Origin: a virus
Length of the DNA stretch: 25,422 nt
Virus record (IMG/VR): IMGVR_UViG_3300025319_000586
Coordinates: 1-25,422 of that record
Reading direction: 5' to 3' (one strand)
Positions within the stretch are counted from its first letter, which is position 1. Each line of letters starts with the position of its first letter. The notes under the pieces were generated by a model that was given only the letters and a program-made list of their open reading frames with translations, searched no databases and was not told the DNA's origin. Both the position numbers and the translations under genes were made by a program. Positions 31 to 15,394 of this stretch are shown piece after piece.

Positions 31-881
31 TTAATTTAGTATCATACTCCTTGCTTTTTGTCTTAATTGCTGTCTTTCTACTTCTCTTTGTTCTCTCATA
101 TTTCTACTTGCAATAGCTTTTAGATAGCCATTAAAAGTTTTCCATCCCATGTGCATTAACTCTTCATGTGTAAATCCTTCATTTATCATAGCTAAAAATA
201 AAGGTAATATAGTTATATCTTCTTGTTCTTCTCCATCTCCATCTCCGTTAAAGTTTTTTTTTCAATATCTTCATCTTCAGTTATTATTCCGCCAAGAATT
301 TCTTTAGAAACAAAAGTTATTAATTCCATTAATTGTTTAAAACTTAAATCAGCCAAAACGCCAGTCTTGATACCTTCGTTTTTAATCTTGATTATTTCTT
401 CTAATGAATTTATAACCTGTTTATATGCTTCTTGTTTATTACCGCTAGCTAACTGTTCCCCAGCTTCCATAATTGCAAAAGCATGACCAACTGTTAAGTC
501 TCCTGGTAATATCAAACTTTTACTGTGTAATTTTATTTCAACATCTTCATAAGTAGTTTCATCCAAATTAATGGATTTCCTACCTCCTTCTGTAAGAAGA
601 TCAACAAAAACAAAAGGGATGAGTTTTAGGAAACCTCCTTTATACATCATCTTTTTTTCTATCTCGTTATTTCCTAATGTATTTCTTATTTTCAATAATT
701 CTGTACATAATTTTATTACTTCTTTATATGCCGAGATTTTCCCTCTTGTTAGTTCCTCTTGTAATGATATTACAACAAGAGCTTGTTTTGAAGGAAGGTC
801 GGCAGGCAAGAACCAAGTCTTGCCCTGCCATATAATCTCAGCATCTTTTGGAAGTAACAAATCTAAATCTAATACTTTCAT
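31..881 (-). CDS. Frameshifted tail chaperone (GT-like product, -1 shift)
   Basis: If ribosomes slip back one base on the A9 run (plus-strand 254-262) after codon 209, translation continues 74 codons in the -1 frame to a TAA at 33-31, giving a product of about 283 residues. The extension starts NFNGDGDGEE, contains FTHEELMHMGWKTFNGYLKA and ends in a charged helix. It is open across its whole length and has no independent start with a ribosome binding site at its upstream end, so it is best explained as the T part of a lambda-type G/GT pair. In lambda-like phages a few percent of ribosomes make the fusion, whose T part recruits tail tube subunits to the chaperone-coated tape measure. The shift is inferred from the reading frames. 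Transcriptional slippage or a sequencing error in the homopolymer remain alternatives. Confidence 0.68.
213..881 (-). CDS. Tail assembly chaperone (G-like, duplicated domain)
   Basis: This 222-residue protein sits just downstream of the tail tube gene and upstream of the presumed tape measure gene, the standard place for the chaperone that coats the tape measure protein during tail assembly. No enzyme motif is visible. It is about twice the usual length because it contains an internal repeat: residues 15-67 align with 115-168 (shared pattern L-P-x-D-L, E-x-L-x-x-G, AYK-x-VI, E-x-x-KI-x-N), each followed by a helical segment (77-100 and 172-198). The start ATG has a good AAGGAGG site three bases upstream. 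The last 13 codons lie beyond an A9 run that allows a -1 shift into a longer product. The assignment rests on position, the frameshift and predicted helical content rather than on a recognised family. Confidence 0.72.
   Translation of the reverse strand: MKVLDLDLLLPKDAEIIWQGKTWFLPADLPSKQALVVISLQEELTRGKISAYKEVIKLCTELLKIRNTLGNNEIEKKMMYKGGFLKLIPFVFVDLLTEGGRKSINLDETTYEDVEIKLHSKSLILPGDLTVGHAFAIMEAGEQLASGNKQEAYKQVINSLEEIIKIKNEGIKTGVLADLSFKQLMELITFVSKEILGGIITEDEDIEKKTLTEMEMEKNKKI
254..262 (-). promoter_or_regulatory. Slippery A9 run for -1 frameshifting
   Basis: The minus strand reads GAA AAA AAA ACT in the zero frame. A AAA AAA is a valid X XXY YYZ heptamer, allowing both tRNAs to re-pair one base back. 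The -1 frame is then open for 74 codons. I did not identify a clear downstream stimulatory hairpin. Confidence 0.65.
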
Positions 882-2122: not shown

Positions 2123-2593
2123 TCACACCTCCTCCGTTTTGACTATTATCTCAACTTGCCCTTCTTTAGCAAAGATACCATCTAATGCTTTATTTCGCAT
2201 AAGTGGATAATAGTCCCATCTTCTTAAATCTATATTCCATGCTGTGCTATTCAACGAAACATCTGTCCATAATATTTCAAGAATAGCCCTAATATATCTA
2301 TATATTCTTTTTGTTATTACTTCTTCATCACTATCAACATCTACTATTGAAATTACTACATTCTGATTTGCCTCCAACCAATCGGATGTTTGAATGATTG
2401 TTTCTCCACTATCACCAAGAATAATTATGGAGGGGAAATCAGGATATTCTTGTTTTTCACTAAGATAATAATGAGCTATGTCTCTTAAAATTATCCCATC
2501 TCCGTATGTAGTATTGAGACTAGTCAATTTTGCAGACATATTATTTTGCAATAAAGTCTTAATCTGATTTACAATCGTCTCCATTAAATTCAT
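2123..2593 (-). CDS. Mu gp37-like tail completion/terminator protein
   Basis: The 156-residue protein lies between the gpG-like morphogenesis gene and the tail tube gene and overlaps the former by four bases (ATGA). It begins with a helix (LMETIVNQIKTLLQ), then alternates strands and helices (PSIIILGDSGETI, VVISIVDVDSDEE, ITKRIYRYIRAILEIL) in a pattern common to tail terminator proteins that cap the tail tube and join it to the head. Mu gp37 (DUF1834) occupies the same position. Identity is therefore mostly by synteny and predicted fold. The ribosome binding site is weak (GGAG about 11 bases upstream), which fits coupling to the upstream gene. Confidence 0.65.
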   Translation of the reverse strand: MNLMETIVNQIKTLLQNNMSAKLTSLNTTYGDGIILRDIAHYYLSEKQEYPDFPSIIILGDSGETIIQTSDWLEANQNVVISIVDVDSDEEVITKRIYRYIRAILEILWTDVSLNSTAWNIDLRRWDYYPLMRNKALDGIFAKEGQVEIIVKTEEV

Positions 2594-3099
2594 GTTCCCA
2601 TTGCTCCAAATATTCTTCTTCTTTCTTCTACAATCCTTTTCCTAAACAATTCAATCCATTCTCCTTTAATTCCCATAACTGTTTCGGGAATATCTACAGG
2701 AGGTCTACGAGGTAGTTTTCTTCTTTTACCTGTTGATTGATGATAGATTGCATATGGGACATTAGTTCCTATTTCAAGTCTTGTTGGTGTTAATTTATAT
2801 AGAGATCCCTTGCTACCTTTTTTTATTAAGCTTCCTCTTAAATCTCCTTTTCTAACTAAAATAGGTTGTCCAGGATAGTGCTTCGCTTTCCATATTGCAT
2901 ATCTCGGACTAAGTGCAACCCATCCACCCGAATATCCACCCTGACTATCAAATTGCTCTTTCTCTACTCTATAGAAAATATCGCCAGCTTTTTTTAATGG
3001 TTCAGTCCAATCTGATATTGATTCAGAAAATTGAACAAGATTTCTTTCAAATTGCACATCCCCTAAAACTGAGATTTTAAAATCTATATAACCACCCAT
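2590..3099 (-). CDS. Phage virion morphogenesis protein (Mu gpG-like)
   Basis: The 169-residue product carries the signature of the gpG/tail-completion family: W-x-x-L-x-x-x-Y after a Gly-rich stretch (residues 55-68), PILVRKGDLRGSL in the middle, then YAIYHQSTG followed by LPRRPP. In Mu this protein helps join heads and tails. It starts on the TAATG overlap with the DUF1320 gene and ends on an ATGA overlap with the gp37-like gene, so all three are translationally coupled. Length is normal for the family. Confidence 0.87.
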   Translation of the reverse strand: MGGYIDFKISVLGDVQFERNLVQFSESISDWTEPLKKAGDIFYRVEKEQFDSQGGYSGGWVALSPRYAIWKAKHYPGQPILVRKGDLRGSLIKKGSKGSLYKLTPTRLEIGTNVPYAIYHQSTGKRRKLPRRPPVDIPETVMGIKGEWIELFRKRIVEERRRIFGAMGT

Positions 3100-3572
3100 T
3101 AGAATACCTGCCCTTTCCTGAATTTAGGTTTTAGATGTTCTTCTACTTGCAAACCTGCGTCATCATCATCATCTGGATTATCTACAGCATAAGAAGTAGC
3201 TCCTTGAGACCATGAAGCACGAGGTGCATCATTAAGTATTTGTGGATTTTTCTCTATTGCACTCAATTGTTGGTTAAATATTGTCCAATACCTATTTGGT
3301 GGTTCGCCTTCTGCCGTAGAGACAGCAAGTCTTCTTGAATTCTCAACTAATGCTGCTGCACCTATTGCATTTAGAGTTAATAGCATACCAGAAGCAACCG
3401 AATAACCAGTTCCAACAGGAACTGTAAATCCTACAGCCGATAATCTTGCATCAATAATCCCCGCAATCTGTGAAATTATAGAATTTATTTCGTTCTGGTT
3501 AGGATGAGAAATAGAAGTAAAAACTATTTGACTATTTACAGCTTGAACATCACCTGACGTGCAATAAGACAT
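3099..3572 (-). CDS. Head-tail connector protein (DUF1320, Mu gp36-like)
   Basis: The N-terminus MSYCTSGDVQAV and the helical segment with IDARLSAVGFTVPV match the DUF1320/gp36 family, whose members bind the portal and help complete the head-tail neck. A helix-rich middle (MLLTLNAIGAAALVENSRR) is also typical. The C-terminal part has a run of five aspartates (residues 134-138) and a charged tail. At 157 residues it is normal in length. It starts on a TAATG overlap with the preceding unknown gene and is coupled in the same way to the gpG-like gene. Confidence 0.82.
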   Translation of the reverse strand: MSYCTSGDVQAVNSQIVFTSISHPNQNEINSIISQIAGIIDARLSAVGFTVPVGTGYSVASGMLLTLNAIGAAALVENSRRLAVSTAEGEPPNRYWTIFNQQLSAIEKNPQILNDAPRASWSQGATSYAVDNPDDDDDAGLQVEEHLKPKFRKGQVF

Positions 3573-3937
3573 TATATTTCTCCATCTTCCAAATTAATGC
3601 CTACTAACTTCAATAAATATTCTCTATATTCATCATTAGTAGCTTGTCTAAGAAATTTTTTTAAAGAGCGTGCTTGAGTTTTATAAGTAAAGAATATAAA
3701 ATCCGATTTCTTATATTCTTTATCTCTAATAGACATATTTTTTTTAAATATAAATGGAATTGCTTGACTATCAAGTGCGATAACTGTTTTATTATCAGTT
3801 ATCTTTCTAAATTTGTCTTTATCTTCATTAAGTAAATTTAAAAGAATAGGATGGTTGATATATATTACATCCCCAGCCTTTCTCTTTTCGCCACACCATT
3901 TGGTGGTTTCTGTTACAACAAAATATCCTGCACTCAT
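3572..3937 (-). CDS. Unknown 121-residue late protein
   Basis: I do not recognise this protein. It begins SAGYFVVTETTKWCGEKRKAG, is lysine-rich and mixed alpha/beta, and has no signal peptide, membrane segment or cysteine cluster (one Cys at 15). It overlaps the methyltransferase upstream by four bases (ATGA) and the DUF1320 gene downstream by one base (TAATG), with an AGGAGGTGAT site before the ATG, so it is made together with the connector proteins. It sits at the exact border between the modification cassette and the connector block. It could belong to either: a small structural protein, or an accessory or acceptor protein for the cassette. Confidence 0.75.
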   Translation of the reverse strand: MSAGYFVVTETTKWCGEKRKAGDVIYINHPILLNLLNEDKDKFRKITDNKTVIALDSQAIPFIFKKNMSIRDKEYKKSDFIFFTYKTQARSLKKFLRQATNDEYREYLLKLVGINLEDGEI

Positions 3938-4728
3938 AAAATCACCTCCTTAATTTTCAAAATACATCTTAAATGTTGTTTCCACCTTAAATCATGATGC
4001 CTTTGGTAAAGTTTCTTACTTGTAAGTGTAAAGAAACTATTGCCATATTTCCAATTATTCCATGAATCTTTTATACCTTCAATACAATAAGAGAAATCAT
4101 CAATAAACCAACCTGTTTTTTCAAATAATTCAGCCCACCATATAGCAGGTTTAGCTATTTTGTGTGTTTTATCAATATTATATGCGGGGACATTATAGGT
4201 ATTCCCAACTCCCAATGGAATTATTGCAAATAAGACATATCCTTTATCACTCATTAGATTTAATAATTCATTTATTCTATCTTCTGGTATATGTTCTAAT
4301 GTATCTTTAGATACAATATATTCAAAATGTTCAATATCATCAAATGGTATAGGGTCTTTTTTTGTAGAAAGTCTACAGTATTGTTTTATTTCTTTATCTA
4401 CTTGAGATATTGCATATTCAGATATATCGCATCCCCAAGCCTGCCTATATAGCATCAATCTAAAAGCTCTCACTAAGTAACCTTTTGACGAACCAAAATC
4501 TAAAATTTTATCCTGTCTTCTTATACCAAGATGGTCTACCATAGCCATTGCCATAGGCGTGGTTAATTCAGGTAACCATCTATACATAGAAAAACAGGAA
4601 ATGCCTTTTTCAAACCCTCTCTCAAAATAATCCTCTCCATATTCCTCCTCTGTAATAGAAGGATGATTGAATTCATAGTAATTTAAATTCTCTCTTTTCA
4701 CAATCTCAGCCAAGCTGTTCTGTTGCAT
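3934..4728 (-). CDS. Class I SAM-dependent methyltransferase
   Basis: Residues 75-83 (ILDFGSSKG) form the SAM-binding motif I of a Rossmann methyltransferase. About 30 residues on comes the acidic strand with the Cys-Asp-Ile step, and VSKDTLEHIPED supplies motif II/III, followed by a strand GYVLFAIIPLG. The 264-residue length is usual for small-molecule, sugar or protein methyltransferases, and the motif set resembles methyltransferases found in glycan clusters (Methyltransf_11/23 type). The start overlaps the radical SAM gene by 31 bases. Its stop overlaps the next gene by four bases. A glycan or protein acceptor is inferred from the neighbours, not from the sequence itself. Confidence 0.85.
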   Translation of the reverse strand: MQQNSLAEIVKRENLNYYEFNHPSITEEEYGEDYFERGFEKGISCFSMYRWLPELTTPMAMAMVDHLGIRRQDKILDFGSSKGYLVRAFRLMLYRQAWGCDISEYAISQVDKEIKQYCRLSTKKDPIPFDDIEHFEYIVSKDTLEHIPEDRINELLNLMSDKGYVLFAIIPLGVGNTYNVPAYNIDKTHKIAKPAIWWAELFEKTGWFIDDFSYCIEGIKDSWNNWKYGNSFFTLTSKKLYQRHHDLRWKQHLRCILKIKEVIL

Positions 4729-5651
4729 TTATTACATGGCTCCATTATTTGTTTAGTTTTTTCTTGTGACTTAATTTCATCTCCTAAATAATGCTTTGGT
4801 AATTCAATTCCTTCTGGAAATTCAAATGAATTTTTAAATAAATGTCTGATTCTCGTTAATGCTTCGCAATTCCATATTCTTGTCAAATCCTCTTCTTTTT
4901 CTATTTTCCCAAAAGTGCATTCCCCCTGAACATCATCAGTGCAACATATACATATAGTTCCATCCCATAAAACATGAGGAAGTATGAATGGATAATCACA
5001 TACCGATGGAGTTAGACATCCAGTATCATAGCCATCTTCACCAGCCATCTCTTTAACTAAATCCAACCAGGGATTCATATTCTTAATTACATGAATATTA
5101 TCATCGGGTAACATTTGTCTGAATCTTTCAACAAATTCTTTCTCAATTCCATTATGAACATATTTTGTTTTTATCAATGCTATATGCTTATGCACTCTTT
5201 CTATGCTGCCAAGTTCATGGTATAATTCAAGAAAGTTTTTTATCATTAATTCCATTTTCACTTCCTGGAATTCACCTTTAGAATTAAAGGGATGATAAGT
5301 CATTGCAAGCGTTACATCACATTTAGAATCTTTAATAACCCTTACAACTCTTTTAATTTGTTCAGGATCTGCAACTAAACCTGTAAATAAATCAAAGTGG
5401 ACATCCTTTTTAAGAGAACATAAATATTCAATAAATTCTGGTAAATATGAATATAATAAAGGCTCACCTAAACCATTAAGATTAAATCCTGCATAGTAAT
5501 TATATTTAAGTGTCTCTAAAGCTATAAGTTTTGCAAGTTCAAAATCCATCATTCCAACTTTTCTTGTCATATACCGTCTTGGACATTCGGCACAATCTAA
5601 ACCACAAGCATTAGTTAATTCTAACTGTATTGCTTCAATCTTGTGTTGCAT
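4698..5651 (-). CDS. Radical SAM/SPASM enzyme
   Basis: The CxxxCxxC motif (Cys16, Cys20, Cys23; ACGLDCAEC) binds the 4Fe-4S cluster that cleaves SAM, and LNGLGEPLL at 58-66 is the GGEP-type motif of the barrel. The C-terminal part has the SPASM layout: a cysteine pair region around WDGTICICCTD (231-240), LxxIWNCEA (256-264), and a terminal CNKC at 306-309, which would hold auxiliary clusters. Such enzymes modify peptides or carry out sugar and small-molecule chemistry; the substrate cannot be read from sequence. The gene overlaps both flanking methyltransferase-like genes (by 17 and 31 bases), so the three are co-translated. No precursor-peptide gene is obvious nearby. Confidence 0.88.
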   Translation of the reverse strand: MQHKIEAIQLELTNACGLDCAECPRRYMTRKVGMMDFELAKLIALETLKYNYYAGFNLNGLGEPLLYSYLPEFIEYLCSLKKDVHFDLFTGLVADPEQIKRVVRVIKDSKCDVTLAMTYHPFNSKGEFQEVKMELMIKNFLELYHELGSIERVHKHIALIKTKYVHNGIEKEFVERFRQMLPDDNIHVIKNMNPWLDLVKEMAGEDGYDTGCLTPSVCDYPFILPHVLWDGTICICCTDDVQGECTFGKIEKEEDLTRIWNCEALTRIRHLFKNSFEFPEGIELPKHYLGDEIKSQEKTKQIMEPCNKCNRTAWLRL

Positions 5652-6435
5652 AAGGTCTCCTTTCTATTAATACGATTAAATCGTTTTCCCATAATTTTGT
5701 CTTAATCCATTCAGGATTATTTTCTAAAAATTCATTTAAAGCTTGTTTAATATCAGGAATAGTTGCATCATCAAATATAATTGCATCAGTCATCTTGCTA
5801 CAAATTGCTATTTCCTTTTTTGTATGTTCGTAAGTATGAATAGTATCTAGAAAAATTAATTCATAATATAGGGATAAATTCCCTGAATTAAGCATTGCAA
5901 TATCATCTCCTTGCCAAAAAGTCCACCAACTAACATCTTTATACCTGACCCATGTTTTACCTAATGGGTGCCTATCAACACTATCCAGCTTGCCACCTTG
6001 TGTTTTACACCAATAATGAAATAACGAAGTAGATATACCACTATCTCCACCAACACCAAGTTCTAAGATTGAATATGGTTGCACTTTTGCTAAGCCAGCC
6101 ATATATGCAATAGCAGATGGGTATTTCATTAACGAAAGATGCCAGAATAACTCTATTTCTGATTGAAAATATCTGTTATCCAATGCCTTACCTTTCTCTA
6201 AAATATTCGGTGTATTTTGTTCATAATGAATAAGGTCAGGATAATAAGCATTAATAAGAGAATCATCTACCGTTGATAAGAATGGTAAATCTTGCCAACT
6301 TTCTTTTTCTTGTAGTTTAATTTCATCAGGTATAATAGGGGATTGTTCTTTTAATAATTCATAATGCATTCTTAAACCTGCCTCAAATCCTTCTTGAATA
6401 CTACCATCAGGATATAAGCATTTATAATTAGCCAT
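5635..6435 (-). CDS. Class I methyltransferase-like protein (Methyltransf_24/CmcI type)
   Basis: After about 115 residues of variable sequence comes ILELGVGG (123-130), a Rossmann motif I. It is followed by KLDSVDRHPLG (acidic end of strand 2), LIFLDTIHTYEH and AIIFDDATIPDIKQAL. The D-x-x-H-x-Y-E and I-F-D-D steps are typical of the Methyltransf_24 / cephalosporin-hydroxylase-like group, common in polysaccharide and rhamnose O-methylation clusters. The start has GAGG about eight bases upstream. The end overlaps the radical SAM gene. A sugar methyltransferase role is the simplest reading of the context, but a substrate is not visible. Confidence 0.78.
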   Translation of the reverse strand: MANYKCLYPDGSIQEGFEAGLRMHYELLKEQSPIIPDEIKLQEKESWQDLPFLSTVDDSLINAYYPDLIHYEQNTPNILEKGKALDNRYFQSEIELFWHLSLMKYPSAIAYMAGLAKVQPYSILELGVGGDSGISTSLFHYWCKTQGGKLDSVDRHPLGKTWVRYKDVSWWTFWQGDDIAMLNSGNLSLYYELIFLDTIHTYEHTKKEIAICSKMTDAIIFDDATIPDIKQALNEFLENNPEWIKTKLWENDLIVLIERRPYATQD

Positions 6436-6490
6436 TAATGCCTCGCATATGACGATATTTTTCCATTCTATCTTGCCCTACTGGAATTAA

Positions 6491-7453
6491 TCACTCTATC
6501 CTCTTGTTTAATTGATTTGGATACTTTAATATCAAATTTTCGGTCTTACCCCTTATGTCATCATCTACAACCTGCTTCCATATCCTATCTTCTCTTTCCC
6601 ACCAGAAATTCTCGTATTTCAAGACAAATCCATCATTTACATCGTGTTTAACTCTGTCCCATGCTCTTGTTCCACCCCAAAAATGGATATAATAAGGATC
6701 TGCATAACCTCCATAATAAGTTCCTTCTGGCACATGATCGGGAAATGGGAAGTATCTATGATCTACAGGTGCTTTAATTAAATTATATCCTTGTTCTTCA
6801 AGCCAATAATATAGTTGTTGCCCTGGTTCATACCAACCTGCATTTAATCTACCATTATCAGAACCAGTCTTTTGCTTAAATCCTCGTTTCTCGGCAAATG
6901 CTCCAGTCCACGATAAGTAACTTTGATCCATTTCTCTTATATCCATTGTCTGATTAAATCCTTCTCCAAAATACATTGTATAATCGTGATTATCCATGCA
7001 AAGTTTATTGAATTCTTGTACAGGTTTAGTTCTATATAATGTTGCAGATGGATTAATATAATTATGCACATATCCGCCTTCATCCCAATAATAGCCAACT
7101 GCCACATTCTTTTGCTCTCCTTCTAAGAACGAAAGATACCAATCAAGCCATCCATCTTTACATGCCATACTATCTGTCTCTGCTGTAAATATATATTCAG
7201 TATCAATAAGTTCTATTGCACAATCTAAAGCTGAAGCATGGAATCTATTTGGTTTCCAATTATCTACTACCTTTACTCCTTCACCTAATTTCGTCTCAGT
7301 TATTCCTCTAATACTGTTATGCCATGACGAATTATTAACAATCATAATATCATAATCAACATTATTCTTAGTTTTCTTAAAACTTGACACAACCACTTGT
7401 GTCCATTTCCATGTATGTCCATGTGGTATTACTATTGTTACTTTTTTATTCAT
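6491..7453 (-). CDS. GT2-like (GT-A fold) glycosyltransferase
   Basis: The 320-residue protein opens with a nucleotide-sugar-binding strand (KVTIVIPHGHTW) and has IMIVNNSS at 37-43. It then has an ETDS motif at 92-95 in the place of the metal-binding DxD of family 2 glycosyltransferases. The rest is rich in aromatic residues (Trp and Tyr in the last 150 residues), as often seen in acceptor-binding halves. It begins on a TAATG overlap with the large fusion glycosyltransferase and has AAAGGAGGT before the ATG, so the two act in the same transcript. It has no membrane segment and should be cytoplasmic, consistent with modification of virion proteins before release. Confidence 0.75.
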   Translation of the reverse strand: MNKKVTIVIPHGHTWKWTQVVVSSFKKTKNNVDYDIMIVNNSSWHNSIRGITETKLGEGVKVVDNWKPNRFHASALDCAIELIDTEYIFTAETDSMACKDGWLDWYLSFLEGEQKNVAVGYYWDEGGYVHNYINPSATLYRTKPVQEFNKLCMDNHDYTMYFGEGFNQTMDIREMDQSYLSWTGAFAEKRGFKQKTGSDNGRLNAGWYEPGQQLYYWLEEQGYNLIKAPVDHRYFPFPDHVPEGTYYGGYADPYYIHFWGGTRAWDRVKHDVNDGFVLKYENFWWEREDRIWKQVVDDDIRGKTENLILKYPNQLNKRIE

Positions 7454-9513
7454 TAATTACCTCCTTTTTCTAATGCGTAATTTATTGCTTTTATAACATC
7501 CGCTGGTGGAATAGTGTTAATGCAATAAGGCGGACGGCAATCCATTCTATTACCAAAACAAGGACCCAAAATAGGGCATACCCTTACATAGTCTGGTTCA
7601 ACCCCTATTGTCATACGATAAGGTTGCGTTACTCGTGCTGCACCCGTCCCATAAAGGACTACTGATTGAGTGCCGACACTTGCGGCACAATGCGATATAA
7701 ATGAATCAATGCAGATTACAAGTTTTGCTTGTGCCAGGATAAAAGCAGTTTCTCTAAAAGAGAGTTTCCCTCTTAAATCAAGAGATACTCCTTCTGCATA
7801 TATGTCTCCATTACCTCCAACTTGAACAAAAGGAATATTCTTAAAATGTGTTATAACTTCTGCAAATCTACTATAGACACGGAAAGGATGTCCTCCCGAT
7901 GTATGGATTGCAAAGAATTCTTTGTTACCATATTTAAAATCATTAACGATTTTGGGATATATTTTTGGTTCAGTCCAAGATACATTCAGCATATCGGCAT
8001 ATATCCTATATAATGGAACATCAGCAGTTCCCCAATTTCCCCTCAAAACAGGTTCATGTATCATATACATTTTCTTATATTTATTTAAAAGATTAACATT
8101 CCAATCTACAACTTCATCTATATCAGGGTTACCTTCCAAAATGTCTTTGTATATAGATTTAGTCATGTATACCAATTTTGATTCAGGGAATTTAGCTTTA
8201 ACTCCTGGTATTGCAGAAGTCCCAAGCAAGACATCTCCTGCGGTTTCATCTAAGGCATATAATATATCGTTTTCATTAGTGATTTTAGGCACTACAAAAA
8301 TAGGTTTTATCTTTTCAATATTAAATACTTCCCTAAATCCTTTCATAACATTAATAATATGAAAATCTGTTAATATTAATTTAAAGCCTTCTTCTACTCT
8401 TGGGTTTAGCTTACCATCAGCAATATTTATAGCTTTTTCAACCATGTCATCTATATCAACAATAGGTCTTGCACTGCCATCATTACCAGGGAAATGATGA
8501 TAAGTCTGAATTTTAATCGGCACTCCAGCTTTTTCTAGAGTCTCGCTTAAAGCAGAATGGTCAGGCATTAATACGGGAGTTTTTGTTGCAAAAGCATATA
8601 ATTTAGGTAACCAGAACCCTTCAGCAGTTGATGTAGTTATCAATAAGTCAAGGCAATTATATATCTTATTCATTTGTTCCGTAGTAACAAGATATGGATT
8701 AAAACCCTCAATATTCGGTGATTTAATAACGCCATGCTTCAATACATACCAGTTTAACATTTGCCCTAAGTTATATCCCATTGCCCATCTATCCACCATT
8801 GGATTATCAGCATTTAATCTCGTATGTAAATATAAGACAGATGGTCTTTCATATTTCTTTTCAAATAAGTTATAAAATTGTAGAGTTCTTGGGAAGTTTT
8901 TCCTATAACTATGATGATTAATATTGCCTATTATATAAGAATCAGGATTTACACCCAAAACATTAACTTTAAAATCTGTTAATTGGTCTTTAATAATAGG
9001 ATAATATTCATCAGGATTAACGCCTATTGGTATAATTTTCATTTTTTTCTTCAATTCGGGTGCTACTCTCAATATCTGTTTAAATCCATATTCAGAATAA
9101 ACTAAAATTATATCTACATCTCTTATATAGTCAGCATAATCTCTTAATATTGGTGCATCTATTGCTGTATAAGTAATAATAACAGGATATTTTAAATGTT
9201 CATGTAAACTTCTGATTAATTGAGGCATAAATCCTAATTCAAATATATCTATCTGTAAAAAAATTACATCAAAGTTTGCTCTAATAGCATATTCAAAAAA
9301 TTTAGCTCTCCCTAATGGATCATTGTGGGGGTTAGGTAATGCTGGTATAATAAAATATTCCAAACTTCTATTATCAATATAAAATTCATTAATTCCAAAA
9401 AATGTAAAATCAAATTCTTTCCCTAACGAATCGGCTATGTTTTTCATAACAATACCCCTACCAGTCGGAGCTGTCGGAGTATCGGAATAGCATAAAATCT
9501 GTTTTTTTGCCAT
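7453..9513 (-). CDS. GT4-GT9 fusion glycosyltransferase
   Basis: This 686-residue protein carries two GT-B type glycosyltransferase modules. Residues 1 to about 390 resemble GT4: an N-terminal Rossmann half with a Gly-rich loop (TAPTGRGIVMKNIA) and, in the second half, TTSTAEGFWLPKLYAFATKT with the E-x-G-F-x-L-P motif that contacts the donor. Residues about 410-686 resemble GT9 heptosyltransferases: FPESKLVYMTK, then HTSGGHPFRVYSRFAEVI, and ICIDSFISHCAASVGT, where the donor nucleotide is bound. A CxxxxxxCxxxxC cluster lies near the C-terminus. The start has AAGGAAGG upstream. Two modules in one chain could add two consecutive sugars. Donors and acceptor are unknown. Confidence 0.8.
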   Translation of the reverse strand: MAKKQILCYSDTPTAPTGRGIVMKNIADSLGKEFDFTFFGINEFYIDNRSLEYFIIPALPNPHNDPLGRAKFFEYAIRANFDVIFLQIDIFELGFMPQLIRSLHEHLKYPVIITYTAIDAPILRDYADYIRDVDIILVYSEYGFKQILRVAPELKKKMKIIPIGVNPDEYYPIIKDQLTDFKVNVLGVNPDSYIIGNINHHSYRKNFPRTLQFYNLFEKKYERPSVLYLHTRLNADNPMVDRWAMGYNLGQMLNWYVLKHGVIKSPNIEGFNPYLVTTEQMNKIYNCLDLLITTSTAEGFWLPKLYAFATKTPVLMPDHSALSETLEKAGVPIKIQTYHHFPGNDGSARPIVDIDDMVEKAINIADGKLNPRVEEGFKLILTDFHIINVMKGFREVFNIEKIKPIFVVPKITNENDILYALDETAGDVLLGTSAIPGVKAKFPESKLVYMTKSIYKDILEGNPDIDEVVDWNVNLLNKYKKMYMIHEPVLRGNWGTADVPLYRIYADMLNVSWTEPKIYPKIVNDFKYGNKEFFAIHTSGGHPFRVYSRFAEVITHFKNIPFVQVGGNGDIYAEGVSLDLRGKLSFRETAFILAQAKLVICIDSFISHCAASVGTQSVVLYGTGAARVTQPYRMTIGVEPDYVRVCPILGPCFGNRMDCRPPYCINTIPPADVIKAINYALEKGGN

Positions 9514-9586: not shown

Positions 9587-9967
9587 CTAGTTTCCAAATG
9601 CAACATAAGATACATTTGTAGTTCCAGCTTTATATAACTCTCCAGAAGCAAGCACTTGATATATCCAGAATCTACCTGCATTAGAATAATCAGGTGCCCA
9701 TGTATATTTTTCTGGTGTCACACCTGCACTTGGTGCTCCTGATCCTGCTGGTATTACTTGGAAAACATTTGTTAGTGGGGTGCTAAAATATCCACTTCCG
9801 GTTGTTCCTACTTGTCCTCCACCAGAAACTATTATCATATTAGCTCCAGTTGATCTGACAATATTAGGACTTGCAGAGGTAACTTTGGTTGTGCCAGCTA
9901 TTTGAAGAGTTGAACGCACATCTAGTATATCTAGAACTAATTTTCTTCTCTTTCTTTCTGTTCCCAT
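9587..9967 (-). CDS. Unknown small protein after the major capsid gene
   Basis: I do not recognise this 126-residue protein. It has a very basic N-terminus (TERKRRKL), then a Gly/Ser/Thr-rich, probably beta-structured body with the aromatic stretch YTWAPDYSNAGRFWIYQV near the end. It has AGAAGGAG upstream and follows the major capsid gene after about 50 bases, with a hairpin behind it. Position and composition suggest a minor capsid, head-fibre or decoration protein. The Ser/Thr-rich surface would also make it a plausible acceptor for the glycosyltransferases encoded next. Both are inferences. Confidence 0.75.
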   Translation of the reverse strand: MGTERKRRKLVLDILDVRSTLQIAGTTKVTSASPNIVRSTGANMIIVSGGGQVGTTGSGYFSTPLTNVFQVIPAGSGAPSAGVTPEKYTWAPDYSNAGRFWIYQVLASGELYKAGTTNVSYVAFGN

Positions 9968-10016: not shown

Positions 10017-10946
10017 TTAAGCTACAATATTCGCAAACATGTAACCACAATCTGCACTTACAACATATTCATCTACACTATGCCATGCCTCATATACATC
10101 CTGAGATTTATTCTCTTCTCTCCAGCTTTTTACATAATCAGAGGGGCCATGACTAAATATATAAGCAGCAGTTGGAGTTCTAAGTCCTGGTTTTGGAGCT
10201 ACATAACCAATCCAACAATGTTTTCCCCATATATAAGCCATAGTTGTTGTAGATGCGCCTTCTACTGAAGTTGCCTTTATTGCTTTTCCAACAAGCAATT
10301 TATCAAATCCAAGTAATGCTGCTGTTGCATCTACTGTTAGTATTCTTTTATCATTGTTTGAAAGTTTACTTAGAAAGTCAGGATGAGTCCTTAGAATATC
10401 CCATACCTGCGCTCCTATAACCATTGTATTGGGGTCTCTCCCTATAAGTCCTCTAACTGTTGATACAGCAGTATAAAGAATATCATAGAATGGGTCAGAT
10501 GCTGCATAATCATTCCACAGATTTGATGGTGTAGAAGTGCTTGTCCAATTTGCAGCAGTAAATATCATTGAAGCAACTCTCCCTTCCATCCCTAATAACA
10601 ATACATTTTTCGCATATTCCGTAGCTTCTACTTCCAAATTAAAAGGTGGATCTGCATTATTTTTGACTTGATCTGCAACTTCTTTTGCCCATGAATAATC
10701 TATGCAAGTATAAGAATTACTCACATCTATACGGTATCCGCCTCTAGGGCCTTCGGAACTCACACCTCTTGGCACTATTTCATCTCTGAACCAGTCAGCT
10801 TTTGAATATAATGGCACTATATCTGACTTTTTCTTTACATCTATTATCGGTGCTACTTTATCAGCAATAAATTCAGTATTTTTGTATAATACTGAAATGT
10901 TAGACATTATTTGATTTACATGAACATCATGTTCTGTTGGTAACAT
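10017..10946 (-). CDS. Major capsid protein
   Basis: The 309-residue product follows the protease/scaffold and decoration genes, and its sequence has the pattern of major capsid proteins with an HK97-type fold: an N-terminal helix (HVNQIMSNISVLY), a region with FIADKVAPIIDVKKKSD, a helix (VEATEYAKNVLLLGMEGRV) corresponding to the spine region, and DPNTMVIGAQVWDILRTHP in the P/A-domain region. The C-terminal strands end in YMFANIVA. The start has AGGAGGTGAAG eight bases upstream, a strong site fitting high expression. It resembles the subset of capsid proteins found beside Mu-like protease genes rather than classical HK97 gp5; no N-terminal prodomain is apparent. Confidence 0.87.
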   Translation of the reverse strand: MLPTEHDVHVNQIMSNISVLYKNTEFIADKVAPIIDVKKKSDIVPLYSKADWFRDEIVPRGVSSEGPRGGYRIDVSNSYTCIDYSWAKEVADQVKNNADPPFNLEVEATEYAKNVLLLGMEGRVASMIFTAANWTSTSTPSNLWNDYAASDPFYDILYTAVSTVRGLIGRDPNTMVIGAQVWDILRTHPDFLSKLSNNDKRILTVDATAALLGFDKLLVGKAIKATSVEGASTTTMAYIWGKHCWIGYVAPKPGLRTPTAAYIFSHGPSDYVKSWREENKSQDVYEAWHSVDEYVVSADCGYMFANIVA

Positions 10947-10962: not shown

Positions 10963-11349
10963 TTATGATTCTTTATGCCCTAAGCCAACAAGAACAACTT
11001 CTATAATCTCATTAGCGGCAGTTGCTACTTCTTTATTTACTCCTACTCTATATTGGTTACCATTGGTCTGAGTTATAACTCTACCACTGGAATCAAAAGT
11101 TAGCATCGTTCCCGCACTTGCTATTGCGTCTCCTGCTACTACTTTGCTTGTTCCTGCCTGCCTTACTGTAGCCTCTTCATTGGCTGCAGCAGGGTCATTC
11201 TGCAATATTCCTACAGGAACTTGTGATGTATTTGTTGCTGCTGTGTTGACAGTATCTGCTGCTGATATTCTCATTACATAATATTGCTTCGCACTTAAAT
11301 CCCCAGCAGCTTTATAACTTATATCATTTCCGTCTGTAGATTTAGACAT
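10963..11349 (-). CDS. Capsid decoration protein (DUF2190-like)
   Basis: This 128-residue protein lies directly before the major capsid gene, the usual place of small decoration or stabilisation proteins. It is rich in Ala, Thr, Val and Gly with regular beta strands: SYKAAGDLSAKQYYVMRI near the start, VPVGILQNDPAAANEEATVR in the middle, and a final EIIEVVLVGLGH. The ILQN-x-P step and the repeated small-residue strands are typical of DUF2190/decoration-type proteins. The start has AGGAGGT upstream. It would bind the outer capsid surface, stabilising the expanded head. Confidence 0.75.
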   Translation of the reverse strand: MSKSTDGNDISYKAAGDLSAKQYYVMRISAADTVNTAATNTSQVPVGILQNDPAAANEEATVRQAGTSKVVAGDAIASAGTMLTFDSSGRVITQTNGNQYRVGVNKEVATAANEIIEVVLVGLGHKES

Positions 11350-11368: not shown

Positions 11369-11917
11369 TCATGTTTTGAAGCCTTGAGCTTCTCTATATA
11401 TCTTATAGAGTTCAGGTTTTTCTTTAAATACCATAGTCAAAGCTCCTGCATAATCTATTTTAGCTTCGGTCATTTTCTTAGCTATCTCTTCTTCTACCAG
11501 CTCCATACCTTCTTTTACTTTAACAGAGTCTCCATCTGCACCTCTTATGCCGAGGTCAACAATAGGTGGTAATTCTGATAGTAATTTTGTAGTTCTTTCA
11601 GGATCAATTTTATACCATTCTACATAATGGTCTTTAAGGACTGGAATTATTCTCCCCTCTTTGAGGGCTTTATTTATAACTTCATCCATTTCTTTATCTC
11701 TTAGCTTATCTTCAAGAGTTTTACTCTTTTCTGCGAGTCTTTTTATTTCTTCTTGATCCTTTATAACTAAATCAGATAGCTTTTTGACTTCTTCTTTTAG
11801 TTTATCTGAATTTTCCATGTTTTTTACTCCTTCTTTTAGTTTGCGAATTGCGGTTATAGCAATTTCTATTGCTGAATCTTCTGGCAATTCTAACTCTTGT
11901 AATATTAAATTATCCAT
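11369..11917 (-). CDS. Probable nested scaffold protein (internal start)
   Basis: Codon 301 of the protease-scaffold gene is an ATG preceded by AAGGAGG with eight bases of spacing, as good as the gene-initiating sites in this operon. Translation from it would give 182 residues made only of the scaffold coiled coil. Mu and lambda make their scaffolds this way (Z inside I, Nu3 inside C), in excess over the protease. A second in-frame ATG at codon 334 (11818) also has AAGGAG upstream. The nested product is inferred from the start signal; no expression data exist here. Confidence 0.65.
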   Translation of the reverse strand: MDNLILQELELPEDSAIEIAITAIRKLKEGVKNMENSDKLKEEVKKLSDLVIKDQEEIKRLAEKSKTLEDKLRDKEMDEVINKALKEGRIIPVLKDHYVEWYKIDPERTTKLLSELPPIVDLGIRGADGDSVKVKEGMELVEEEIAKKMTEAKIDYAGALTMVFKEKPELYKIYREAQGFKT

Positions 11918-12817
11918 TGATACTTCCTCCTTCTTCTGTTTTTGTTTAGCTGCAGTCCATTCTGCTAATTTCCACCCTTCAGATAACATAACAGGGGACA
12001 TTCCTTCTAGAAATGGTCTATTTGTAAGAGCAGAGGCGAAAACAGTTTGTCCTTGTTGTTTACCCTGTTTATTTGTATAGGCAAAATCAAATTCTGGACT
12101 TAAGAATCTATATTCACCATTAACAATGTAGTCTACAGCTCTCTTTGTCCAGTATGGGATAGCCCAAAGCCCTTGTTTACCTTTATTTAATAATTTTCTT
12201 ATCCATCCAGCAGCTGGAACAGGTCCCTGTATATTGCCATCGGCTGACAAATGTTCATAATCTATTACTAATTCACGCTTGCCCTTCTCAAAATTTTCTA
12301 CAAATTTTGCTACATCACCTTCTGTAATTGAAAAATCCCCATATTCAGGGTGACTCCATTCTCCTACACACATTATCTGTATAGGGGCACCCTCTGTTAA
12401 GCCTTTTATATCTATTTCCGTAGTATCTATAAGTCTTATGCCATGTAAATCAATAATAGACTTCATTTTGCTTTTAGACCCATCTTTAGGAACCAACATC
12501 ATTCCAGACATTATATTCTGCATCATATCGCCCATCATTTTTTGCATCATCTTCTTCATTTTTTCATCTTCATCACCGTCTGATATACCAGGCACATGCA
12601 CAGAATTAGGAGTTGGTTCCATTGCCTTCTTTACCCACTCCTCACCTTCCTTAGTATATTGCTTCTTAACTGCTGCCCATGCGACAGCAAAACTTTTTTC
12701 TTCATCTCCATCATATTGTTCGTAAGCACTATTAAAGGCACTTTGCCAGATATTCTGAGCATGAGATGGCATTGTCTTCACTCCATCAGGCAAACTATCT
12801 AATGTTGGATATGGCAT
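11369..12817 (-). CDS. ChaB-protease-scaffold fusion (Mu I-like)
   Basis: Three parts can be read in this 482-residue protein. Residues 1-64 match the ChaB domain: LPDGVKTMPSHAQNIWQSAF, then AYEQYDGDEE and VAWAAVKKQY. Residues 87-107 are methionine-rich. Residues about 125-290 match the Mu gpI capsid maturation protease: VIDYEHLSADG (184-194) and FASALTNRPFLEGMSPV (260-276). Residues 301-482 are a charged coiled coil (LKEEVKKLSDLVIKDQEEIK) expected to serve as scaffold. Such proteins assemble inside the prohead, cleave themselves and head proteins, and leave. A ChaB domain at the front of a phage protease is recurrent but its role is unclear. The start has GGAGGT seven bases upstream, and a leader with an attenuator-like structure precedes it. 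Confidence 0.86.
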   Translation of the reverse strand: MPYPTLDSLPDGVKTMPSHAQNIWQSAFNSAYEQYDGDEEKSFAVAWAAVKKQYTKEGEEWVKKAMEPTPNSVHVPGISDGDEDEKMKKMMQKMMGDMMQNIMSGMMLVPKDGSKSKMKSIIDLHGIRLIDTTEIDIKGLTEGAPIQIMCVGEWSHPEYGDFSITEGDVAKFVENFEKGKRELVIDYEHLSADGNIQGPVPAAGWIRKLLNKGKQGLWAIPYWTKRAVDYIVNGEYRFLSPEFDFAYTNKQGKQQGQTVFASALTNRPFLEGMSPVMLSEGWKLAEWTAAKQKQKKEEVSMDNLILQELELPEDSAIEIAITAIRKLKEGVKNMENSDKLKEEVKKLSDLVIKDQEEIKRLAEKSKTLEDKLRDKEMDEVINKALKEGRIIPVLKDHYVEWYKIDPERTTKLLSELPPIVDLGIRGADGDSVKVKEGMELVEEEIAKKMTEAKIDYAGALTMVFKEKPELYKIYREAQGFKT

Positions 12818-12850
12818 TTTATACCTCCATCTTTTTTTTCATATATAATA

Positions 12851-12892
12851 AAAAAGCCTGTTAGAGCCAGTCATGCATGACCCTAACAGGCT
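12851..12892 (-). terminator. Intrinsic terminator in the leader of the protease gene
   Basis: On the minus strand a perfect 10-bp stem (AGCCTGTTAG / CTAACAGGCT) closes a loop that contains a small palindrome (GTCATGCATGAC), and is followed by six T residues. It lies only about 35 bases before the protease start codon and downstream of a promoter at 12956-12984, so it would act as an attenuator as well as ending portal transcripts. Confidence 0.8.
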
Positions 12893-12902
12893 AAATATTA
12901 TT

Positions 12903-12921
12903 GCTCTAAGCTGATCAGGCT
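12903..12921 (-). promoter_or_regulatory. Alternative pairing arm of the protease leader
   Basis: The minus strand has AGCCTG (12921-12916) and TTAGAGC (12909-12903). Both can pair with the GCTCTAACAGGCT that forms the 3' arm of the terminator stem (12867-12855), so this upstream arm competes with the terminator's own 5' arm. The segment can also fold on itself (CTAAGC / GCTTAG). Mutually exclusive helices are a hallmark of attenuators, but no ligand or protein signal is evident. Confidence 0.5.
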
Positions 12922-12955
12922 TAGATTAAATTAATATATTTTTATTATAATTTAT

Positions 12956-12984
12956 ATTATATCATATTATAAAAAACAAGGCAA
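12956..12984 (-). promoter_or_regulatory. Promoter for the capsid protease module
   Basis: Minus strand: TTGCCT (-35), 17-base spacer, TATAAT (-10) with TGA directly before it (extended -10). Transcription should start near 12949, giving a leader of about 130 bases before the protease gene. The -10 region shares TGATATAATATAA with two other minus-strand sites, at 17329-17337 and 18955-18963. Confidence 0.65.
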
Positions 12985-13079
12985 AGTTCTTGGATTTGTT
13001 TGAGCCACATCTGCGGATTAAACAAAACCAATGCAAAATCATAAGGAATGTAATTAAAAAAATGCGTAATCGTAAACAT
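12957..13079 (-). CDS. Possible 40-residue protein in the portal-protease gap
   Basis: An ATG with TTAGGAG four bases before ATAA-ATG opens 40 codons. The product is hydrophobic and aromatic (MFTITHFFNYIPYDFALVLF) and has no recognised family. It lies in the 414-base gap between portal and protease genes, and its 3' end overlaps the protease promoter. The good ribosome binding site is the only positive evidence. The remainder of the gap shows no clear gene. Confidence 0.3.
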   Translation of the reverse strand: MFTITHFFNYIPYDFALVLFNPQMWLKQIQELCLVFYNMI

Positions 13080-13231
13080 TTATCTCCTAAAAATCTTGAT
13101 CTTTTTAAACATTTAGCTTCAAAACTTCACCTTTAGCTGGTGGTAGTTGACATTTCTATTAAAGCAATTTTTTCTATATTGTATGAGCATCACTCAAATT
13201 TTTCGTTTCTTTCTTTTTTCTTGAATCCATA

Positions 13232-15394
13232 TTACCTTACCTCTTTCATCAAATAAACATTAATACACCTACATCTTAATCCACCAGAACATCGGGGGTT
13301 TGGAGTTGCATAGACTGGATCATTTAATTTATGTCTTATTCCATCAAGATTTCGGCAAGGAATACATGATTTTGTATCCATTACTGCTGAATATACCGCA
13401 GTCTCTACTACTTCTTCGTATTGCTGGGCTTCTGTATTTCTTCCTATACCAAAAGCTTCCATTACTGCCATATTTGCAGATTTTTCAAGTTCTCTATCTG
13501 ATAACTCCTGTAAATCTTGAAAGACTAATTTTCGTGTAGTTTCATTGTCTATCCCAGAACGCTTATAATTCATTGCTGAAAAGGTTGCTGTATCAAGATA
13601 TTTCTGGGATAATCTTCTCGCAACTAGCAAAGATTTAGCATAAATATAAGCAAATATAGCTTTTTCGTCTATATTTGATTTTTTATCTTCGTCTTTTAAT
13701 AATCTTACTGGTCTTGCTTGTTTTTCTATCTCATTATTAACTTGTTTTCTTCCAAAATTGTATATAGAGACAAGTACATCTTTGATATTTTCAGCCATTT
13801 GAGATACATATCGTGCTTTTACATTAGGAATATCATCTACTTCTCTTTTTGACACTTCATAGGCAATATTATCTATCTGGTCTTTCTGTATTGATTGCAC
13901 TTTTTGAATGAGAAGATTAACCGCTTCATCAAGCCCATCCTCCATCTCTTTTAAAGCCAAAATATTGCTTTCCAAATCAGTTGGTTCTCTTAGATATTCT
14001 ACTTTATCTTTTTTTTCTTTTCTTTCTTCTTCCGCTTTCTCCCCATGATAATAACCTCCTATTTGAAATTTTGGTTTGATACCAGCTATTTTATATATTC
14101 TCTCTTTCATGTTTTGATAGTTTTCGTTCTTGTCTACTGGTTCAACTTCCCCATCTTCTGATCTGATAGGCAAATCCATCTGAGTTCTTAATGCCGATTC
14201 TGTGCTTATATCGGGTTGTAAGAAACCAGATTTTGCTAAATTTAGCAATGTTTGAGATAATTTTACAAAATCCATAGCTTGTAGTCTTGAACATTTTAAT
14301 TTAGGATATTTATTGACTTTCCAATTAAAATCAACTAATTGCTTAATACCATAAGCATTCATGGTATCTTCAATATTCCTTGCTTGTGCCTGTAATGCCA
14401 TCAAGAAAAAGTCAGACATTGTTTCACCTAATGCCCTTGCTCCTAATTCGGAAATACCATATAATAAAAATTGCTGCAATATACTCGTTGCAATCATTTC
14501 GTTATGGTGTTTTATGAGCCTACTCGGATCTGTTAATTGACCTGTATAACCTTCAATTTTAAACTCCCAACCAGGAGGCTTCATTACATAAGCTCTTTCA
14601 TGTGCTCTTACCGATTCTCCTATGCTTTTTGCGGTGGTTACATCATCGTTTGTATATCCTATTGGTAATGTTATAACAGGTATTCCCATTCCATGCCTTT
14701 CAACTGCCATTGCTCCTATACGGTAAAGATGGCTTTTGTAATACCAATGTTGTCTCATAGCCCTTAAATATGATTTACCTTCATAATTAGAGCCTTCTCT
14801 TTGATTTGTAAATATTAATAATTTATTGATTGGTATAGTATAAGTGCCACTCTGCTCACCTTTCATCACTTTTTGTGTCCATGATTTAATACCTCCAGAA
14901 TCATCAAATTCCCAAGACCACGAAGTTTTAGGTAATCTCGGTGCTAAAGTTTTCCAATAATATTTATTATCATCTCCAACTATAAAAATCTTTTCAAAAT
15001 TACTGAATCCAAAAGCGTTCATTAAAAATATATGTTCCAAAAAAGAATCCCAAGAAATTGACAATCCCTCGAAGAGGTTATCTTTTACAAAATCAGCAAT
15101 CTCTCTATCAATTCCATCTTGTGAAGTAGGCACTATATCCCATTCGGCAGTGCGTAAAGGTAATGAACAGCCCAACAACACTGCTGAAACCATGCCATCC
15201 CCGCTCCTCATTTGTTCATATTCTTCATACTTTTTAGTATGTTGTAAATCAACATTGTATTCATCGTAAATAATACCCGAATAGACAGTTGTTCCAGTTA
15301 CTCCTATTTCTTGCCCAAATGCTCCTGCTGTTGTAGGTGTTTTTTGGCTTTCTTCTTTTTTGAATAATTTTATTTCAAAGGGTCCTAGTTTCAA
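13232..15394 (-). CDS. Portal protein fused to a minor head protein
   Basis: Residues 1 to about 450 match the Mu gp29/DUF935 portal group: TVYSGIIYDEY near the start, QMRSGDGMVSAVLLGCSLPL at about 62-81, YYWKTLAPR, and FLLYGISELGARALGETMSD. The C-terminal 230 residues look like the gp7/MuF head morphogenesis domain: a long helix, then VYSAVMDTKSCIPCRNLDG and a final CSGGLRCRCINVYL with conserved cysteines. In Mu these are separate genes (29 and 30); here one 720-residue chain would place a minor head protein on each portal subunit. The start is a TTG immediately after the stop of the radical SAM gene, with GGAG nine bases upstream; no better start exists before GPFEIKLF. Confidence 0.87.
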   Translation of the reverse strand: MKLGPFEIKLFKKEESQKTPTTAGAFGQEIGVTGTTVYSGIIYDEYNVDLQHTKKYEEYEQMRSGDGMVSAVLLGCSLPLRTAEWDIVPTSQDGIDREIADFVKDNLFEGLSISWDSFLEHIFLMNAFGFSNFEKIFIVGDDNKYYWKTLAPRLPKTSWSWEFDDSGGIKSWTQKVMKGEQSGTYTIPINKLLIFTNQREGSNYEGKSYLRAMRQHWYYKSHLYRIGAMAVERHGMGIPVITLPIGYTNDDVTTAKSIGESVRAHERAYVMKPPGWEFKIEGYTGQLTDPSRLIKHHNEMIATSILQQFLLYGISELGARALGETMSDFFLMALQAQARNIEDTMNAYGIKQLVDFNWKVNKYPKLKCSRLQAMDFVKLSQTLLNLAKSGFLQPDISTESALRTQMDLPIRSEDGEVEPVDKNENYQNMKERIYKIAGIKPKFQIGGYYHGEKAEEERKEKKDKVEYLREPTDLESNILALKEMEDGLDEAVNLLIQKVQSIQKDQIDNIAYEVSKREVDDIPNVKARYVSQMAENIKDVLVSIYNFGRKQVNNEIEKQARPVRLLKDEDKKSNIDEKAIFAYIYAKSLLVARRLSQKYLDTATFSAMNYKRSGIDNETTRKLVFQDLQELSDRELEKSANMAVMEAFGIGRNTEAQQYEEVVETAVYSAVMDTKSCIPCRNLDGIRHKLNDPVYATPNPRCSGGLRCRCINVYLMKEVR

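Follow-up and report, generated by a model that had tools for sequence, protein, structure and literature searches.

The enzyme cassette and its families

The window analyzed here is a stretch of 25,422 bases from an uncultured bacterial virus (IMG/VR record IMGVR_UViG_3300025319_000586), whose minus strand contains, at positions 3934-9513, a cassette of five enzyme genes. The cassette starts with a fused glycosyltransferase (GT) gene, GT4-GT9 (7453-9513), encoding 686 amino acids (aa) with a GT4 half (residues ~1-400) and a GT9 heptosyltransferase-like half (~410-686), as indicated by Pfam and PHROG matches and by profile matches to the Protein Data Bank (PDB). It is followed by genes for a GT2-like GT (6491-7453; 320 aa), methyltransferase b, a class I enzyme of the Methyltransf_24 type (5635-6435; 266 aa), the BtrN-like radical SAM/SPASM enzyme rSAM1 (4698-5651; 317 aa), and methyltransferase a (MTa), a class I enzyme with Pfam matches to Methyltransf_23/11 (3934-4728; 264 aa). 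All five genes look intact, with the capsid genes upstream and the neck and tail genes downstream. The initial annotation had proposed these reading frames and families, which were confirmed, and had placed them between the capsid block and the connector genes, with which the family matches of the neighbours agree. It had missed a second radical SAM gene, rSAM2 (15395-16369, minus strand; 324 aa), located in the terminase-portal interval, and two GT2-type GT genes on the plus strand, GT2b (21722-22435) and GT2c (22760-23407). A TnpB/IS605 OrfB-type gene (20495-21679, plus strand) immediately precedes the plus-strand GT2 genes.

The cassette genes are tightly packed. A single base is common to GT4-GT9 and GT2 (TAATG). 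Overlaps of 17, 31 and 4 nucleotides (nt) link methyltransferase b to rSAM1, rSAM1 to MTa, and MTa to the next connector gene (the last as ATGA), respectively; a gap of 73 nt separates the open reading frame (ORF) at 9587-9967 from GT4-GT9. The overlapping or abutting starts and the coupling to the connector genes described previously are thus evident from the coordinates, apart from a 55-nt gap between GT2 and methyltransferase b. Membership of the late operon rests on these overlaps and on gene order because promoter and terminator signals were uninformative: promoter-like sites in the window occur at chance level (58 versus a mean of 52.2), and the MCP (major capsid protein)-cassette interval contains only weak terminator-like sites. 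The strongest such site (12892-12855, minus strand; 15 pairs followed by a T-run) lies in the portal-protease interval. This predicted hairpin may divide the late block, placing rSAM2 on an upstream transcript and the cassette on a downstream one. A scan of the window and of contig L033 (IMGVR_UViG_3300002097_000354, same virus) with Rfam detected no RNA at gathering scores.

Several of the window enzymes have single-sequence Pfam scores below the curated cut-off: the GT2-like enzyme (PF00535; 22.8 versus 23.3 bits), methyltransferase b (Methyltransf_24; 21.6 versus 26.3 bits), rSAM1 (Radical_SAM; 24.6 versus 29.5 bits) and the GT4 half. The SPASM, GT9 and Methyltransf_23 scores are above it. 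Relatives of the weakly scoring enzymes obtain better scores, including one methyltransferase b relative above the cut-off (three relatives were aligned), and an E-x-D block is conserved in an alignment of seven GT2 sequences.

The GT9 half of the fusion belongs to the GT9 family by its PF01075 score (37 bits; cut-off 22) and by residues Asp427, Asp603, Ser604 and His608, invariant in 30 of 30 aligned rows, which fit the family motifs, a GD near the start and a D-S-x-x-x-H block. Against the PDB, the fusion profile matches chlorovirus B736L with its GT4 half, and 3tov, WaaF and WaaC with its GT9 half. The GT4 half has a GT-B fold: the first match of the fusion model (mean predicted local distance difference test (pLDDT) 81.5; predicted template modelling score 0.60) is 3oy2, and 3tov ranks 24th. 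In rSAM1, the CxxxCxxC cysteines (16, 20 and 23) and later Cys are invariant in seven aligned sequences, and the best PDB profile match is BtrN (9e-21), followed by SkfB (4e-7). As BtrN is the radical SAM dehydrogenase of the butirosin pathway, a type of enzyme that oxidises an aminocyclitol hydroxyl, this match, though of low identity, points to rSAM1 being a sugar-type enzyme. The profile and model (pLDDT 89.2) of rSAM2 match SuiB, DesII, BlsE, SkfB, PqqE and viperins, none of which stands out, and an assignment of rSAM2 as sugar- or peptide-specific was dropped in view of these mixed matches.

These matches bear on the view that the enzymes make no conjugated glycan but a diffusible product, either a small molecule or a modified peptide, resembling an aminoglycoside or a ribosomally synthesized and post-translationally modified peptide. 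The likeness of rSAM1 to an aminoglycoside pathway enzyme would fit this, as would the matches of the rSAM2 model to SuiB and SkfB besides DesII and BlsE; going by the predicted fold, a radically modified peptide may be conceivable for rSAM2 only. However, such a product does not call for several GTs per gene set or for placement among virion genes, and we consider it quite improbable.

Recurrence of the enzyme families and the island site

The grouping of these genes is not peculiar to the window. Near-copies and the window's own virus were removed from the loci obtained from IMG/VR with rSAM2 (the best 80 of 351) and with MTa (58). MTa lies directly beside rSAM2 in 36 of 44 groups from the rSAM2 search (40 of 44 if found anywhere on the locus), and rSAM2 directly beside MTa in 25 of 32 groups from the MTa search (29 of 32 locus-wide). 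In the window the two genes are ~11 kb apart in the same late block. Most rSAM2-MTa pairs, however, occur without the fusion, with 51 groups holding just these two families. Among named phages, both queries match Pelagibacter phage HTVC008M and Synechococcus phage SynMITS9220M01, in which the two genes adjoin within sugar-gene regions; each query had one extra weak match (Arthrobacter phage DanielleIgnace; an unannotated faecal phage), and rSAM1, methyltransferase b and GT2 had zero matches among named phages.

A GT4-GT9 profile found 112 relatives among IMG/VR viral contigs, 80 of which were kept; together with the window and earlier loci, the fusion is present in 61 distinct groups (58 under a stricter threshold). 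Among named phages only the GT4 half found matches: TJE1 (two records) and S-EIV1 with the window fusion as query, and TJE1 and one Microcystis phage with a second fusion member. All seven families (GT4-GT9, GT2, GT2c, methyltransferases a and b, rSAM1 and rSAM2) occur jointly in four groups, counting the window. GT2b and GT2c resemble island members, each with up to 49% identity (to genes of L045 and L046, respectively). Other viral contigs show these families side by side, so the cassette is more than a chance grouping; the search of viral databases for shared gene order, suggested earlier as a check, thus found the families together elsewhere. By the co-location of rSAM2, GT2b and GT2c relatives with the five families elsewhere, the window's enzyme set is larger than five.

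In the commonest backbone the gene order is terminase, portal, protease, C6, MCP (PHROG 29), C7, C2, C1, GT4-GT9, GT2c, further enzymes, C12, neck and tail, with C numbers denoting our protein families. GT4-GT9 thus opens an island at the head-completion/neck junction. Counted over evaluable groups other than the window, C1 or C2 is located at most four genes upstream of GT4-GT9 in 49 of 55, MCP at most eight genes upstream in 38 of 47, GT2c at most three genes downstream in 40 of 48, and rSAM1, rSAM2 or C17 within 12 genes in 26 of 48. Members of C17, a radical SAM family, start with a B12-binding-like region (the Pfam counts are pooled, not per member). Loci L063, L072, L156, L192, L203 and L242 have different surroundings, and further loci end at contig edges.

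The interval between GT4-GT9 and the neck contains 0-11 genes of at least 100 aa (31 loci with a downstream neck-type gene). Outside the seven families it encodes 121 proteins, for which 25 of 44 Pfam families are considered here, with overlapping counts: Methyltransf_24 (16), Methyltransf_11 (14), Radical_SAM (13), B12-binding (12), GT group 1 (8), GT8 (5), and DegT, GDP-mannose dehydratase and pyruvyl transferase (three each). The island content is thus sugar chemistry, comprising methyltransferases, radical SAM enzymes, GTs, a sugar aminotransferase, a dehydratase and a pyruvyl transferase. A radical SAM enzyme, which had been regarded as an unusual addition to such a route, is a frequent member of these sets, and belongs to a widespread accessory island rather than to the window specifically. 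C12, a family of ~130 aa from 23 loci, is located in the island-Neck1 interval (L181, L189, L193, L195, L196 and L197) and by eye resembles part of a GT2-like domain.

A sample not selected by the island was obtained with the PHROG 29 capsid gene as bait (the best 80 of 302 relatives), giving 79 new loci in 63 groups, of which 28 were too short, six had no recognised MCP and 29 were evaluable. GT4-GT9 follows C1 in six of the 29. The other 23 do not contain it, and therefore the island is accessory; in these, C1 is directly followed by Neck1 (14 groups), by C11 (one) or by other or unassigned ORFs (eight). When absence of the island is mapped on a capsid tree with 68 rows, four changes are required, of which at least three are forced by well-supported branches. 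L205, with an island, falls among island-free rows and L330, without one, among carriers; nearly all carriers form one clade.

Two other head types carry related sets. In L046, with a third head type (PHROG 1357 MCP, PHROG 156 portal), the head genes are followed by GT4-GT9, GT2c, rSAM2, GT2 and an incomplete methyltransferase b. The window has a PHROG 1005 head module. Since the 17 IMG/VR loci related to it by MCP (L015-L031) yielded no cassette-family matches, a separate gain of the enzyme set in its lineage is probable. Whereas other phages hold the set at a single junction, the window has it distributed over three places.

A variable, accessory island could also be cargo, with polysaccharide genes of host-like type present as morons that lack any one target and inserted at a junction where the late block tolerates them. 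The island-free majority in the capsid sample and the varying gene number are as expected from cargo. Against it, the same family partnerships recur across backbones and motifs are invariant, which makes this alternative improbable.

Late genes of the window and candidate acceptors

Between the cassette and the tail genes lie three connector or neck genes (2590-3937, minus strand), one of which (2590-3099) matches PHROG 26 (tail completion or Neck1); the other two had no useful family match. Neck and tail genes continue down to the tail-tube gene (893-1849). On the other side of the cassette, all on the same strand, are the 126-aa ORF 9587-9967, Ser/Thr-rich and with no useful family match, the MCP gene (10017-10946; PHROG 1005, 1e-72), a cement protein gene (10963-11349; PF09956) whose product is a possible acceptor, a Mu-type protease gene with ChaB (11369-12817), and the portal (13232-15394) and TerL (17632-18945) genes. 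An HNH-like ORF (16356-16988; PHROG 1271, 1e-4) in the terminase-portal interval overlaps the start of rSAM2; compared with the co-occurring contig L032 it differs in four codons (three silent, one changed). The rSAM2 gene of L032 contains two N positions. The differences between the window and L032 fall almost entirely in ORF 213-881 (minus strand), located after the tail-tube gene, with 19 silent and 14 changed codons. The cassette is invariant between the two, which leaves no substitutions for a test of selection.

The same virus is present in four further IMG/VR contigs, with 99.4-99.96% identity across the compared stretches. L033 encodes a Ro60-like protein (12536-14107; TROVE, 4e-52; Ro60 vWA, 1e-61). 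A host lead was not used: the sole genome-contig match, MNUG01000004.1, is a phage-like contig in an Alphaproteobacteria-labelled metagenome-assembled genome, with ORF sizes as in L049.

Which virion protein might carry a glycan? The protein encoded directly after MCP is Ser/Thr-rich in both backbones: serine and threonine make up 20.6% of ORF 9587-9967 and a median of 20.5% of C7. The contents of the cement protein (18.0%) and the tail tube (15.4%) are also fairly high, and therefore composition singles out no one protein. In the capsid-bait sample C7 is present in five of six island carriers and in none of the 23 island-free groups (Fisher 5e-5). Because the capsid tree places the carriers mostly in one clade, C7 stays a candidate. 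We would rank the candidate acceptors in the order post-MCP protein (ORF 9587-9967 here; C7 elsewhere), cement protein, MCP and tail tube, the first of these being a first candidate and no more.

Possible targets of the pathway and relation to known systems

Our preferred explanation, to which we give about an even chance, is that a late, soluble, phage-encoded pathway assembles and tailors a methylated, radically modified glycan on a candidate virion protein. In this pathway, whose step order, donors, radical chemistry and acceptor we infer, sugars would be added by the GT2-type enzymes and by both GT-B modules in the fusion, the GT9 half perhaps transferring heptose or a similar sugar supplied by the nucleotide-sugar pools of the host. 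Being BtrN-like, rSAM1 would oxidise or epimerise a sugar carbon, rSAM2 would perform a second radical step, and both class I methyltransferases would O-methylate the product. The window would carry one version of an exchangeable island that others hold at one junction of the head-to-tail block.

Several lines of evidence support a virion glycan. First, the genes are located in the head-to-tail block in three settings: at the C1/neck junction in the PHROG 29 backbone, in the window, and behind the head genes of L046. Second, the rSAM2-MTa partnership is conserved, and the island content is sugar chemistry. Third, rSAM1 is BtrN-like, the GT4 half B736L-like and the GT9 half heptosyltransferase-like. 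Fourth, the searches described below revealed no multi-membrane island protein, no PF13440 and no PF00303 in the records scanned. Fifth, a Ser/Thr-rich protein follows MCP in both backbones, and C7 is found in island carriers. Thus, of the earlier suggestion that the cassette is made with the virion proteins as a glycan set, the placement is strengthened by recurrence and probable co-operation; the virion protein as acceptor remains a candidate.

Other observations weigh against this explanation. The named families nearest the GT9 half are heptosyltransferases of the lipopolysaccharide (LPS) core, which fits a host-surface target. GT2b and GT2c are on the opposite strand, outside the late block. 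In the window fusion the second Glu of EX7E, a GT4-family motif, is Tyr306; in the 30 aligned rows this position is Glu in 25, Gln in two, and Asp, Asn and Tyr in one each. C7 occurs in only 32 of the 44 island loci having an MCP, L205 carries an island without it, and no homology between ORF 9587-9967 and C7 was detected. Much of the island-C7 link reflects shared descent, given that nearly all island rows form one capsid clade, and the fixed place of the island is likewise partly due to common descent. The acceptor itself is a candidate proposed from gene content and position.

The main alternative is that the enzymes act late on the host envelope, changing the LPS core or a cytosol-facing glycolipid so that released virions do not stick to debris, or so that competing phages are kept out. 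The GT9 half would suit this role and needs no flippase of its own, and the rSAM2-MTa pair lies within sugar-gene regions in two marine phages. For pelagimyophages, which carry radical SAM and GT genes, modification of the host O-chain is the interpretation favoured by the authors, as far as the available text of PMC7029224 goes. On the other hand, the enzymes are placed within the head-to-tail gene block, and lipid-linked export would need a flippase or multi-membrane proteins. By a simple hydropathy rule, none of 271 island proteins outside the window has two or more predicted membrane segments, compared with 32 of 3,267 other ORFs, and the window's own proteins have at most one. The flippase family PF13440 was found in none of 20 phage records, which are contigs of unrated completeness and may be incomplete; all 14 controls were positive, and GT9 was found in all 20 records. 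Gtr-type serotype conversion involves a membrane flippase and other multi-membrane proteins, and neither PF13440 nor island proteins with several predicted membrane segments were found here, GtrA itself not having been searched for. We regard a host-envelope target as a lesser but real possibility.

The same 20 records bear on DNA hypermodification, in which the GTs and radical enzymes would decorate a modified base of the phage DNA. Phage GTs that glycosylate DNA are known and were reportedly described by Pyle et al. in 2024, a study cited in PMC12619734. However, the thymidylate-synthase-type hydroxymethylase family PF00303, expected for glycosylation of hydroxymethyl-pyrimidines, was detected in none of these possibly incomplete records, with nine of 14 controls positive, and base-hydroxylating families matched none of 35 other scanned proteins of this virus (part of its genes), where only DNA methylases appeared. 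A search for a Tet/JBP dioxygenase, which would offer an alternative route, was negative in all 20 records, yet also in all 14 controls. We consider a DNA target very improbable. Because these scans were negative, lipid-linked export and hydroxymethyl-pyrimidine glycosylation are weakened; cytosolic modification of the LPS core is not. The DNA methylase matches were to N6_N4_Mtase in two of the 35 proteins and to MethyltransfD12 in one, and their places in L033 (11468-12148, 14329-15279 and 16909-17652) were assigned by reading of ORFs.

If a virion protein is indeed the target, the pathway would work most like capsid glycosylation in chloroviruses, and also like that in glycosylated mycobacteriophages. 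In chlorovirus PBCV-1, multidomain viral GTs and methyltransferases such as A064R and A061L build and O-methylate the capsid glycan (PMC9614988). The window shares multidomain GTs and methyltransferases with this system, and its GT4 half is nearest to B736L among solved structures; the function and acceptor of B736L are left open in the available part of that review. In contrast, chloroviruses infect eukaryotes, their machinery has no GT9 half, and radical SAM enzymes go unmentioned in the same part. Some mycobacteriophages encode GTs, and glycans are reported on their capsid and tail-tube proteins (Freeman et al. 2023, as cited in PMC12619734 and in PMC10877033). The window likewise encodes its own GTs, within the virion gene block and with a virion protein as candidate acceptor, but the extracts of the two citing papers mention neither radical SAM enzymes nor a GT4-GT9 fusion for mycobacteriophages.

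Among the named phages, HTVC008M and SynMITS9220M01 have rSAM2 and MTa relatives that adjoin, with GT and heptose genes nearby, but this pair is outside the head-neck interval and no GT4-GT9 fusion was found there. Tetrasphaera phage TJE1 encodes a GT 31.6% identical across the GT4 half, with sugar epimerase and methyltransferase genes beside it; however, this is a GT4 alone, without a GT9 half, and is located ahead of the terminase genes. Radical SAM, GT and methyltransferase genes are listed among marine phage genes in the accessible portion of PMC7150976. Among the papers listed by literature searches, no title or opening of an abstract describes such an island.

As far as the available parts of published accounts go, virion glycosylation is documented for few phages, and radical SAM chemistry is not mentioned in them. 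We tentatively propose, as a possibility short of probable, that a 'virion glycotype' island, exchangeable and located at one junction of the morphogenesis genes, is present in many uncultured tailed phages. It would consist of a conserved GT4-GT9 and variable GTs, methyltransferases and SPASM or B12 radical SAM enzymes, by which related virions would differ in the radically modified glycans on a dedicated Ser/Thr-rich head protein, comparable to bacterial O-antigens. If this is true, virion glycosylation by an island that recurs at one site across dozens of groups of uncultured phages would represent a general strategy. It would also point towards new sugar-modifying radical enzymes and help to account for the GT, methyltransferase and radical SAM genes commonly assigned to auxiliary metabolism, and the occupied and empty sites would offer a matched comparison for virion-glycan function.

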